Positions 25,586 through 33,188 of a stretch of DNA of 64,000 nt are shown here, piece by piece (the stretch's first letter is position 1; the number at the start of each line of letters is the position of its first letter). This stretch comes from Methanosarcina acetivorans C2A (GTDB lineage: Archaea > Halobacteriota > Methanosarcinia > Methanosarcinales > Methanosarcinaceae): assembly GCF_000007345.1 (NCBI RefSeq), contig NC_003552.1, forward strand, positions 558,001 to 622,000, given 5' to 3'. Under the pieces are notes generated by a model that did no database searches, was not told the origin of the DNA, and was given only the letters and a program-made list of their open reading frames with translations. Position numbers and translations under genes: made by a program.

Positions 25586-26113
25586 ATGAAATTTTCACAA
25601 CTGATTGCCACAATCATCTGTCTATCCCTGGCACTTATAGCAGCCGGATGCACAGATTCTGCCGATACTCCTTCAGAGGCAAATCTTACTGAAGAAACAT
25701 CTTCAGCCGAGCAGCCCACAGAACCACAGCCCACAGAACTTCCTGCACCAGTTCCGACAACTGAACAAACAGCTGCTCAAAATGAAAGTAATTTTCCTTC
25801 TGACAAAAAAGAAGGCTATACTCTGTATATCATAAACAATCATGGAAATATAAATCATGAAGTCACTGTAGAATTATTTGACTTAAAAAATTCCTCTATA
25901 TTTAACAAATCATATATTCTAGCTCCTGATGAACAAATAAAAAGCGAATCCTCTGTTGGATTAGCAGATAGGACACGCATTGAAGTTACATTGGATAACA
26001 ATACTACAGAAAATGAAGTCGTTCTCGGAGATTTGAGTGATGTAGCGATCTTATATATCTATATAGATGCACATCGAGATGATTCATTGGATCTAAGCAT
26101 TGCTGTTCCATGA
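25586..26113 (+). CDS. Secreted lipoprotein, paralogue of the 20794 protein
   Basis: The 175-residue protein has a signal peptide ending in the lipobox LIAAGC, with Cys22 as the predicted lipidated residue. A Pro/Glu/Thr-rich linker follows (about 25-75; QPTEPQPTELPAPVPTT). The globular domain (about 80-175) is shared with the protein at 20794-21201. The linker would hold the domain above the S-layer base. Function is unknown. Confidence 0.8.
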   Translation: MKFSQLIATIICLSLALIAAGCTDSADTPSEANLTEETSSAEQPTEPQPTELPAPVPTTEQTAAQNESNFPSDKKEGYTLYIINNHGNINHEVTVELFDLKNSSIFNKSYILAPDEQIKSESSVGLADRTRIEVTLDNNTTENEVVLGDLSDVAILYIYIDAHRDDSLDLSIAVP

Positions 26114-27764: not shown

Positions 27765-28307
27765 TCAGTTTTCAGTATTTATGTTTTGACTCTCCGTAAT
27801 TTTTAAGCATTGATTGATTTTTTTCCATCGGCGTCTTGATACAAATTTTGCTGCCAGCAACATAATTATTGAGACAGCTATGAATATTATACCAATATCC
27901 AACCCTGATATCTCCAATCCCTTTGTCTTTGGAGACTGCACTTCATTTAAGAAGTATAAAACAATTCCAATGCTTCCAATTATTAGAGAACCGATCCCTG
28001 AAGATAACAATATAAGAACCTGGTATTTGCCGGTAGATATTATCTTCTTGCCTTTAGAGGTAAGTTCGTAATACACCCACTTACGCTCACTGCTTTCTAC
28101 TCTATCAACGAGTCCTGCGCTGGTGAGTTTATCCAGATGTTTATATATTGCATTTTTCTGAACCCCCACATTATTTACCAATTCAGCAACTGTCATGCGC
28201 CTTTTATTTAGATTTTTAAGAATTTTTAACCGTGTGTCTGATAATATTGCTTTGAGAATCTCATTATCATTTGCTTTAAACCTATTTTGATGAAGTTTCT
28301 CAGACAC
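27765..28307 (-). CDS. Membrane-anchored winged-helix (ArsR-like) transcription regulator
   Basis: The 180-residue protein has an N-terminal winged helix (about 15-95: ILKAILSDTRLKILKNLNKR, MTVAELVNNVGVQKNAIYKH, LVDRVESSERKWVYYELTSK). Two transmembrane helices follow (about 97-120 and 137-158), then a basic C-terminal tail. This layout is known among archaeal membrane-bound one-component regulators, which sense envelope or external signals. The gene is divergent from the secreted-protein pair at 28472-30178 with a 164 bp shared promoter region, so it is a likely regulator of that pair. Confidence 0.82.
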   Translation of the reverse strand: MSEKLHQNRFKANDNEILKAILSDTRLKILKNLNKRRMTVAELVNNVGVQKNAIYKHLDKLTSAGLVDRVESSERKWVYYELTSKGKKIISTGKYQVLILLSSGIGSLIIGSIGIVLYFLNEVQSPKTKGLEISGLDIGIIFIAVSIIMLLAAKFVSRRRWKKINQCLKITESQNINTEN

Positions 28308-28471
28308 ATAATATCAGATGTGAATCTCATTTTATAAACTTATGCTTTTGAGTCACCTGGTGGTTACTTAAAAAGGAATATATTAGTATGTTATTTACTA
28401 TTTTTTCTTTGATACTTATTTGGGGGGATAAAAAATTAAGTATATATCTTAATGATGAAGGGTGAATAAAA
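28308..28471. promoter_or_regulatory. Divergent promoter between regulator and DUF6345-like gene
   Basis: The spacer has AAGTATATATCTTAATGATG (28438-28457), a TATA-like element very close to the 28472 start, and GAAGGGTGA as ribosome site. A second A+T-rich stretch at about 28325-28340 could serve the regulator. No clear operator palindrome was found by eye. Confidence 0.4.
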
Positions 28472-29242
28472 ATGAGGAAATTGATACGATCAACATGGTG
28501 TCGTATGACAGCATCGGTTACCTTATCCGTAATATTGATCCTGCTTGCGCCTTCTGTATCGCTTGCAGGTACCGGAGATGATAGTGATGCTTCTTCTCCA
28601 GAGGTAGGTGTAGAATGGGTAAACGATTATACATGGCCATATTCAGATCTGTCATATTGTGATGATTCAGCAAATGGCCTGTACAATAGATTAGGGAATG
28701 AGGGTTGGACAAAGAGTTTCAATAAAGGAAATAGCAATGCAAAAGCAGCTCATTTCGAGCAAGCCAACCAAGATTCACAGTACATTGATGCAGTAGATAT
28801 TGCTCTTTATTCAGGTCATGGTTCTACAGATAAACTGGATGTGTCAACTGTAACTGAAAAGGTATACCATGATGAAGCTGAATGGGGAGATTATGATCTT
28901 GAGTGGATAGGCTTAGATTGTTGTCTGGCCGGGTCAGGAGATTTTTCGTCTTCATTGAATGGGGCGCATCTTATCCTGGGATTTTCAACAAACTGCTATG
29001 ATTCCGATCTGGGACTTCATTGGGCAAATTATCTTGTGGATGACGGTTCAAACGATGTTGCATATACAGTCAAGAATTCATGGTTCTATGGGGCGGATGT
29101 AGATCAACCGAGTGGCGTAACAGCAAAAGTTTTCGGTGAAACCTCAAGTTGTGGAAATGATTATATCTGGGGGCAGGGGAGCGTAATTACTGACCCTCCC
29201 GTGGACAGCTCATACACATATTGGACATATAATATGGGATAA
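28472..29242 (+). CDS. Secreted DUF6345-like protein with caspase-type His/Cys motifs
   Basis: The 256-residue protein has a signal peptide (about 1-32, cleavage near LAG). The mature protein resembles the DUF6345 family. Its motifs VDIALYSGHGS (His116) and EWIGLDCCLAGSG (Cys150, Cys151) have the order and setting of the catalytic dyad of clan CD peptidases (caspase, gingipain, CHAT): a His-Gly at the end of one strand and a Cys at the end of the next. A later segment (LGFSTNCYDSDLGLHWANYL, DVAYTVKNSWFYG) is typical of DUF6345. Peptidase activity is therefore a reasonable inference but unproven. The gene is followed after 12 bases by the next secreted protein, so they form an operon. Confidence 0.75.
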   Translation: MRKLIRSTWCRMTASVTLSVILILLAPSVSLAGTGDDSDASSPEVGVEWVNDYTWPYSDLSYCDDSANGLYNRLGNEGWTKSFNKGNSNAKAAHFEQANQDSQYIDAVDIALYSGHGSTDKLDVSTVTEKVYHDEAEWGDYDLEWIGLDCCLAGSGDFSSSLNGAHLILGFSTNCYDSDLGLHWANYLVDDGSNDVAYTVKNSWFYGADVDQPSGVTAKVFGETSSCGNDYIWGQGSVITDPPVDSSYTYWTYNMG

Positions 29243-29254
29243 AGGTGTGTTGGA

Positions 29255-30178
29255 ATGAGAAAATTGATAATAGTACTCGGAATCGTGGCAATGTTGGCTG
29301 TTTTATCATTTGGTCAGGCTACTAATTTTGGAAGCAATGTAATAAATACAAAAGATGAGGGCAGTGTTCAGTACGAACTTGAAGGCTCTCTCCCGTCTAT
29401 TAATGACACTGTTAAAATCTACACGATACGGAATTCGATTGTGACTACGGAATCTGTTGCAGAAATCGGCAGCAAATTTGGCTTTGTGAATTGCAGTCCC
29501 AGCAATGCCGATCCCGGAACAATAGGGATGTTTGATGGGGAAAAGCATTTGTCTGTCTACGAGAAGTCTGGTGCCATATGGTATGCAATTCCTTCAAAAA
29601 TGGATCCGGTAGTGGATATGCAGCCAAATCTCCCTGATGATGAGACCGCAAAAAAAATAGCAGCCGATTTCCTGGTCTCAACAAACTGCTTGCCTCAAGA
29701 CGCAAAGTTCAATGAGATTGTTGCAGATCGGCAAATAACTGCCGAAAAGGGGACTGACAAAGTTATACAGAGCTATGATACGACTCTGCAGGTGAGATAC
29801 CAGAGGGAGATCGATGGGATTCCGGTGGTAGGCCCTGGAAGCAAACTCAAGGTATTCATAGGTGATAATAACGAAGTCGTGGGGATGTTCAAAGTATGGA
29901 GAGATGTAATGCCAGATATCGACATTAAGATCAAAACTCCTGAAAAGGCATATTCGGATCTGGTCGAAGGTAACGATATCGTATTACCAGTACGTGCAGA
30001 TGGCGATAAAGTTATCATAAAAAATGTAACACTTGGCTACTGGATGGAACCTGCTGATAAAGAACAAACAAATGTACTGCCAGTATATATCTTCAAAGGA
30101 GATGTTATTGACTCAAATGCTGAATATTCGGGACAGTATGAAGGGTATGTATACGCCATCGAAGGAGGATTAACTTAA
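29255..30178 (+). CDS. Secreted propeptide-like (PepSY/FTP-like) protein, partner of the DUF6345-like protein
   Basis: The 307-residue protein has a signal peptide (about 1-20). The first half shows no clear domain. Residues about 175-235 (LQVRYQREIDGIPVVGPGSK, LKVFIGDNNEVVGMFKVW) resemble the FTP/PepSY propeptides of thermolysin-like peptidases: 'GIPV.G..L.V..D..G.V'. A further segment (TPEKAYSDLVEGND) follows. Such propeptides fold or inhibit their peptidase. Here it is encoded separately, directly after the DUF6345-like gene, so the pair may be enzyme and inhibitor or chaperone. The similarity is weak and needs a profile search. Confidence 0.65.
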   Translation: MRKLIIVLGIVAMLAVLSFGQATNFGSNVINTKDEGSVQYELEGSLPSINDTVKIYTIRNSIVTTESVAEIGSKFGFVNCSPSNADPGTIGMFDGEKHLSVYEKSGAIWYAIPSKMDPVVDMQPNLPDDETAKKIAADFLVSTNCLPQDAKFNEIVADRQITAEKGTDKVIQSYDTTLQVRYQREIDGIPVVGPGSKLKVFIGDNNEVVGMFKVWRDVMPDIDIKIKTPEKAYSDLVEGNDIVLPVRADGDKVIIKNVTLGYWMEPADKEQTNVLPVYIFKGDVIDSNAEYSGQYEGYVYAIEGGLT

Positions 30179-31944: not shown

Positions 31945-33188
31945 ATGATTAAGAACAAAATTACGATAAGCATACTTCTTTTGGCAATGCTGGTTTGTAT
32001 GGCGTTAACCCCGGCAGTAAGTGCACAGAAAGAGTAAAATTATAGTGTAACTGCTGAGGAAGCTTTTAAGCATGCCAATGCGAACATGATAAGTTTCATA
32101 GCAGCCGATGCACCAGGCTTTGAAAACTGGACAGGGGCATCTGTTGATCCCAAATCGGTTAAGCTTTATGACATAAATGGTCAGAAATTATTTTATCAAT
32201 TCTAAGTATACAAAGAAAAAAATAGATAGGTGTAATTGACATCTGTGCCGATAAAACATTGGGACCTTCACTCTATGATATTGTATTTGATCCTGAACCT
32301 TATAAAGCGGCTGAAGCTATGAAAAAATCAATAGAAATAGCCAAAAGTGAATATTCAGATGGGAAAATCAAATCAACCAATTTGGTTGTATACAACTATC
32401 CAAGTGTAGGGGCGATGACTGTAGTAAAAGACAAGACCACTGGAGTTGAACACCGGATATTTGTAGATGCGTACTCCCTTAATGAGGTTGAAGATAAAAC
32501 CGCAACTGAAACCGAACCCGGAATATGGTCACTATATGACAAGATTTTGACTTATGGAAAGGAAAACAATTTAAAAGAATGGCAAAAAAGTGATGAAATT
32601 ACCAAATCTATAGAACAAGCAGCAGCTAATAAAGGAGTTAATATTAATGCTGCAGTCACTGAAGAAAATATTACAAAGATCAGTGATGATGTAGTAGTGA
32701 GAAGTTCATTTACAGGTAAAATACTTGATATTAACGGTATTGGACAAGAACGAAGTGTTTTTTGTGGTCCAGCATGTATCCGAATGCTTTGTGTGTACTA
32801 TCACAATCCTGACCCCGCCCCTTCACAGGAAACCATCTATATGGGGGAAGGACTGTGGACTTGGGATCCTGATTCCACCCCATATTCATCTGGGCTCACA
32901 TCTAATGATATTGTAGAATGGGCTGAAGAGAAATGGGGTAAAACGGGAACCATAACTAATAGGCTTTTTAATAGTGACGCTATATCAGAAATTGAAAATG
33001 AAAGACCATTTTTCAGTATGACTACAAATCCAAATCATTTTCGAATTTGTAAAGGATACATAACTCAAAATGGGTATACATATTTGCGTCTTAATGATCC
33101 AGAACCTGTTGGTTCGACGTATGGTACTCCAGGATTACTTGAACGCACATATGGTAGCTCAGAATCTGTGCGTATATATATAAGTTAA
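31945..33188 (+). pseudogene. Secreted C39-like (papain-fold) peptidase, broken by two stops and a frameshift
   Basis: Reading from the ATG at 31945 gives a good signal peptide (MIKNKITISILLLAMLVCMA). TAA codons follow in frame at 32035-32037 and 32203-32205, although the flanking codons still read as protein (NYSVTAEEAFKHANANMISF). A shift into the next frame near 32215-32228 restores the rest (IGVIDICADKTLGPSLYDIV). The intact 3' part (from 32259) includes a C39-like peptidase domain: Gln and Cys of GQERSVFCGPACIRML, His of NPNHFRICKGY and Asp of LNDPEP. With a signal peptide and a catalytic set present but three lesions, it is most likely inactive. Sequencing error is unlikely to explain all three. 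Confidence 0.8.

Follow-up and report, generated by a model that had tools for sequence, protein, structure and literature searches.

A predicted exported caspase-fold peptidase of the DUF6345 family and its YycI/FTP-type partner in Methanosarcina acetivorans

Results

The genome of Methanosarcina acetivorans is a single contig of 5,751,492 bases, and the window analyzed here is the stretch of 64,000 nucleotides at its positions 558001-622000. Our subject is a set of three genes in this window, encoding a protein of the DUF6345 family, a partner protein directly downstream, and a winged-helix protein on the opposite strand. The original prediction, made from the letters of the DNA alone, had read them as a possible secreted caspase-like peptidase, its separately encoded propeptide and a membrane-bound regulator. 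All three genes lie where it had placed them, and the signal peptide, the SGHGS and LDCCLAG motifs and the 12-nucleotide gap between the first two genes are present. In window coordinates, with the evidence in brackets, the features are:

27765-28307, minus strand: ArsR-like winged-helix one-component regulator, predicted to be membrane-bound, 180 amino acids, two C-terminal membrane helices (HTH_5, hydropathy, homologues near DUF6345 genes)
28308-28471, no strand: divergent intergenic region with a possible operator, the imperfect inverted repeat 28412-28421/28434-28443 (sequence)
28472-29242, plus strand: DUF6345 protein, 256 amino acids, signal peptide and caspase/haemoglobinase-fold domain, predicted secreted cysteine peptidase (PF19872, 3.6e-39; AlphaFold2; Foldseek)
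28472-28567, plus strand: predicted signal peptide of the DUF6345 protein, residues 1-32, hydrophobic core 14-32, VSLA/GTG (hydropathy, sequence)
28817-28819, plus strand: codon of His116 (SGHGS, residues 114-118), predicted catalytic histidine (invariant in homologues)
28922-28924, plus strand: codon of Cys151 (second cysteine of LDCCLAG, residues 148-154), predicted catalytic cysteine (invariant in homologues)
29255-30178, plus strand: partner protein, 307 amino acids, exported, YycI/FTP-like two-domain fold, predicted peptidase-binding inhibitor or chaperone (family matches, fold, adjacency)
29264-29320, plus strand: N-terminal hydrophobic segment of the partner, residues 4-22, either a signal peptide or an anchor in the membrane (hydropathy)

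The DUF6345 protein matches PF19872, a Pfam family without assigned function, with 134.9 bits against a gathering cut-off of 26.9, over positions 1-219 of the 221 in the profile. Homologues were collected from 393 genomes of the phylum, a wider genome collection and one Deinococcus plasmid. In a curated alignment of 68 diverse members, among which identity goes down to 16%, only two of 224 columns are invariant, and these are His116 and Cys151 (His84 and Cys119 in mature-chain numbering). The histidine stands in a GHG context in 62 of the 68 rows, the cysteine context is mostly [HD][SA]C, and the spacing between the two is mostly 34-52 residues. The dyad had been proposed as His116 with either Cys150 or Cys151. 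His116 and Cys151 are borne out (invariant in 68/68, and each present in 61/61 aligned sequences), and Cys150 drops out, position 150 being mostly Ser or Ala.

An AlphaFold2 model of the mature protein, built on the 68-row alignment, reached a predicted local distance difference test (pLDDT) of 92.9 and a predicted template-modelling score (pTM) of 0.90. In this model the histidine follows strand 78-82 and the cysteine strand 113-117 (mature-chain numbering), which is the clan CD order that had been suggested, and the caspase-like sheet on which that suggestion hinged is part of the predicted caspase/haemoglobinase fold. Foldseek against the PDB returned clan CD structures throughout among the 50 matches listed, the best with probability 1.00; they include the CHAT caspase of the SAVED-CHAT filament (2e-6), caspase-11 (6e-4), gingipain R (7e-4), caspase-6, legumain, MALT1 and other caspases. 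Clan CD is marked by the caspase/haemoglobinase fold, a His/Cys dyad placed where neighbouring strands end, and a glycine beside the catalytic histidine (PMC4357240). The DUF6345 protein is predicted to share the fold, with His-Gly after one core strand and Cys after a later one, both invariant.

What it lacks is a sequence match to a described clan CD family. The link was not seen in Pfam, NCBIfam, PHROGs or the PDB, searched by phmmer and by profile; none of the 68 members has a Pfam peptidase match, and a search of the M. acetivorans genome with the caspase family PF00656 gave no match. The assignment to clan CD thus rests on the fold and the invariant dyad, both well supported computationally. 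On the strength of the models, the protein almost certainly has a caspase/haemoglobinase fold. The absolute conservation of His and Cys argues for catalysis, and activity as a peptidase appears likely. DUF6345 is probably a new clan CD peptidase family, set apart from the described ones by the sequence searches. Near one DUF6345-partner pair elsewhere, a small secreted, unrelated-looking protein without a Pfam match (L079:6249-6941) carries NGHG and LACHS, a clan CD-like dyad order of its own.

The partner had been described as PepSY/FTP-like, which is right in kind. The window protein itself matches FTP (PF07504) with 13.3 bits, under the gathering cut-off of 21, and its homologues fall in the YycI/FTP/YcdB group: YycI is matched by 16 of 54 (best 2e-8), DUF4901/YcdB by 12 and FTP by 12 (best 1.5e-5). 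The closest fold is that of YycI/YycH. Foldseek of a model of both proteins placed first an uncharacterised Eubacterium protein (5coz, 3e-9), YycH (2e-7) and Bacillus subtilis YycI (2o3o, 2e-6), the YycI/YycH matches having probability 1.00, and then caspases, which correspond to the other half of the model. The partner is accordingly modelled as a two-domain YycI/YycH-type fold, a distant relative of FTP/PepSY propeptides. An N-terminal hydrophobic segment is found in 128 of 137 partner proteins. PepSY propeptides inhibit their own peptidases intramolecularly, YycI is counted among the PepSY proteins, and PepSY proteins have been proposed to share a fold that binds a partner domain located either in its own protein or in a second one (PMC4282423). 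Work cited in the same article presents YycI and YycH as accessory regulators of a membrane sensor. There is no WalK-type kinase among the recurrent neighbours of the partner, which are the peptidase and the winged-helix regulator. A C-terminal piece of a partner-family protein stands as an orphan elsewhere on the M. acetivorans chromosome, with no peptidase nearby (L124:5645-5908, that is G000:C1:1301650-1301829, minus strand).

The pairing of the two proteins is close to obligatory. In the window, the partner frame begins 12 nucleotides past the DUF6345 stop codon and in the same reading frame. By script count, a partner is fused or lies at most 300 nucleotides downstream in 71 of 77 distinct full-length DUF6345 domains, and the gap is at most 20 nucleotides in 63 of the 66 pairs measured, with a median of -2, so that overlapping genes are common. 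Among the six exceptions, two have partner sequence just beyond the limits of the script (L108, L116) and one ends within the partner at the contig end (L114); in another the partner is on the opposite strand (L080), and the last two belong to a divergent DUF6345 subgroup without partner (L053, L058). In all, the pairing holds for about 71-74 of the 77 domains. Given this pairing, well supported by the counts, and the two invariant columns, chance can be excluded.

Natural fusions support the idea of a separately encoded propeptide. Peptidase and partner are joined in this order in three proteins (L046, L083, L115), and in the Deinococcus plasmid protein the FTP-like partner domain comes first (residues 143-227, with DUF6345 at 407-621), as in a classical prodomain. 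Elsewhere two to five tandem partner copies follow a single peptidase gene (L059, L068, L078, L111). The arrays of four or five (L059:5569-10501, L068:1112-5035, L111:6564-11433) consist of copies that are 63-84% identical, with no obvious hot spot. Distance matrices of peptidase and partner correlate over 64 pairs with r=0.67, against a maximum of 0.13 after shuffling.

A third recurrent protein, membrane-anchored and of about 160-200 amino acids, lies between partner and regulator in several loci (L052:6649-7137, L067:3621-4091, L106:7444-7914, L071:6692-7255, L102-L104). By reading of the sequences it seems to be joined to the partner's N-terminus in L100:1690-3270, and it is absent from the window. 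L100 comes from a contig of a Cloacimonadota metagenome-assembled genome; the locus is very like the archaeal ones, and mis-binning or recent transfer is possible.

For the question of a complex, both window genes were co-folded as one read-through chain, with the stop codon replaced by Gln and the signal peptide as linker, on an alignment of rows holding both domains and rows holding one. This linked construct folds as one unit, with a pLDDT of 89 and a pTM of 0.89 over 536 residues; pLDDT drops below 50 at the N-terminus and in the linker (227-254) and nowhere else. For randomly placed domains, we estimate from the domain sizes a pTM of about 0.5-0.6, so the model places the two domains confidently. 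It suggests that peptidase and partner form a complex, as had been expected.

DUF6345-partner pairs recur across dozens of archaea and in a handful of bacteria, and the family name still denotes an unknown function. Occurrence is patchy: in the taxonomic family of the window genome, 8 of 112 genomes are positive. No homologue was found in phage records. Across the 393 genomes of the phylum, the partner occurs in 73 and a Pfam-detected peptidase in 47, some of the partner-only genomes holding a peptidase that Pfam misses (L131, L132, L164). Intact partners stand behind peptidase remnants in four loci (L125, L128, L140, L142), further remnants being weak or possibly assembly errors (L112, L137, L143). 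There are 26 partner genes without any trace of a peptidase. These numbers are counts and not rates, as the partner-only loci were picked for lacking a peptidase. Peptidases without partner are confined to L053 and L058. The partner thus often persists after loss of the peptidase, and a peptidase almost never stands without its partner; this speaks for an inhibitor, an immunity protein or a sensor and against a pure folding helper. Apparent deletions of the catalytic residues in L070 proved to be masked stretches, not real losses, and were discounted. PKD domains occur in relatives of either protein, and kelch or NHL propellers in peptidases; such modules fit a role at the cell surface.

The regulator matches HTH_5 with 41.7 bits against a cut-off of 22 (1e-10), and hydropathy marks its residues 97-123 and 138-156 as hydrophobic segments; it thus combines the domain and the membrane helices of an ArsR-like membrane-bound regulator. 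Winged-helix homologues with two transmembrane segments lie near 25 DUF6345 genes, nine of them at 23-179 nucleotides and the rest mostly at about 1-1.5 kb, in both orientations. They occur in 24 of 72 loci with a peptidase compared with 2 of 35 without. Such regulators are not abundant in M. acetivorans, where the next-best match scores 24.8 bits against 370 for the protein itself. What had been said of a minus-strand winged helix with two hydrophobic C-terminal segments therefore stands, and the association recurs; the divergent transcription does not generalise, since orientation varies among loci, and is a local arrangement. The imperfect inverted repeat in the intergenic region, 10 nucleotides long, is a candidate operator.

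Other proteins of the surroundings may be mentioned. A lipoprotein at 25586-26113 of the window resembles, by eye, secreted proteins near other DUF6345 loci (L041, L042, L053, L066, L069, L075), and a C39-like cysteine peptidase is encoded about 2 kb downstream, at 32259-33188. In another locus a papain-family protein is found immediately upstream of DUF6345 (L008:193-1302).

Discussion

The reading we favour, with a probability of about 0.62, is that the locus encodes an exported clan CD peptidase module with a dedicated YycI/FTP-type partner that acts as a propeptide in trans. The DUF6345 protein would be an exported cysteine peptidase working with the dyad His116/Cys151. The partner, exported as well and either cleaved or anchored by its N-terminus, would bind the peptidase outside the cell and most probably cover its active site. 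We infer that its effect is inhibition rather than activation, perhaps combined with help in folding, and that inhibition would last until the partner is displaced or cleaved. The protein with winged helix and two transmembrane segments would probably serve as one-component regulator of the module.

Several points weigh against this reading. Activity, cleavage and complex formation are predictions rather than measurements. With known clan CD enzymes the model reaches modest template-modelling (TM) scores, mostly 0.4-0.5, as may be expected if the family is divergent. The pTM of the co-fold is a whole-chain score of a covalently linked construct, without decoy comparison or interface score, and does not locate the partner relative to the active site. 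The correlation of the distance matrices partly reflects shared species history. At about two thirds of the loci the regulator is either lacking or was not seen, and partner genes without peptidase would also fit an independent function of the partner.

A broader view is that DUF6345, a new and mainly archaeal clan CD family, belongs to a surface module for conflict or signalling, in which YycI-fold partners, present in arrays and retained as orphans to protect or to sense, neutralise the one exported enzyme, and a membrane-bound one-component regulator controls the module. We hold this possible but can propose it only tentatively.

Among the rival readings, conflict would mean that the secreted peptidase is an effector against competing cells or the surface proteins of kin, that the partner protects the producer, and that tandem and orphan partners guard against the peptidases of relatives. 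The arrays of two to five partners behind one peptidase, the intact partners beside peptidase remnants, the larger number of genomes with partner than with peptidase, the PKD, kelch or NHL surface modules found fused to peptidases and the patchy distribution would all be expected. However, single-chain fusions of peptidase and partner (L046, L083, L115 and also L095) are more easily understood as a built-in propeptide, and we saw neither a delivery system nor a hypervariable recognition surface, the tandem copies differing without obvious hot spot. This makes an effector with its immunity protein doubtful.

Slightly more doubtful is surface signalling, in which an anchored partner responds to the peptidase or to its substrate and signals through membrane contacts to the winged-helix regulator, with cleavage of the partner as the signal, much as YycI and YycH act on WalK. 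The fold of the partner matches these accessory regulators of a membrane sensor, nearly all partners have the N-terminal hydrophobic segment, and the regulator genes near 25 peptidase genes would provide the receiver. Yet the regulator goes with the peptidase rather than with the partner (it is present at 2 of 35 peptidase-free loci), most loci lack it, and its orientation varies.

It is improbable that the partner is a folding helper only, needed for secretion or folding of the peptidase and devoid of inhibitory action: near-obligatory adjacency and the N-terminal domain fusion fit an intramolecular chaperone, but a dedicated foldase would not be expected to outlive its lost peptidase, as intact partners do. 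Finally, the reaction does not follow from fold and dyad alone, and some clan CD enzymes ligate peptides, so that DUF6345 might be a transpeptidase, ligase or binding domain with a clan CD fold, which the absolute conservation of His and Cys and a partner of a type known from peptidases make very improbable.

If the trans-propeptide reading is correct, a Pfam family of unknown function gains a testable role as an exported caspase-fold peptidase, occurring in methanogens and in other archaea, for which the two catalytic residues are predicted. A link would arise between PepSY/YycI regulators and clan CD enzymes, so far discussed apart, and zymogen control in trans could be studied in a simple system of two proteins in a genetically tractable archaeon. 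Literature searches on DUF6345 and on caspase-like archaeal systems brought up no prior description, and no report of a caspase fold paired with a YycI/FTP-type partner was found in the literature searched.

Parts of the arrangement have counterparts in known systems. Gingipain R (C25), legumain (C13) and CHAT resemble the DUF6345 protein in predicted fold and in carrying His-Gly and Cys in the same order and places at core-strand ends, and gingipain is likewise exported and is held by an N-terminal prodomain. DUF6345 differs from the clan CD enzymes in having no detectable sequence similarity to them, in being a small single domain of about 220 amino acids, and in having a separate gene for a YycI-type partner. 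The partner, in turn, shares with YycI/YycH, FTP/PepSY and YcdB (DUF4901) proteins the two-domain fold, weak family-level matches and an N-terminal anchor or signal. Unlike these, among which YycI/YycH are accessory regulators of the WalK kinase, it is linked to a caspase-fold peptidase and not to histidine kinases or metallopeptidases. In SleB-YpeB, staphopain-staphostatin and streptopain-Spi, as here, the gene of an exported hydrolase adjoins that of its cognate regulator or inhibitor, and YpeB even has PepSY domains. Their enzymes, however, have other folds and none the caspase fold, and the staphostatins are cytoplasmic.
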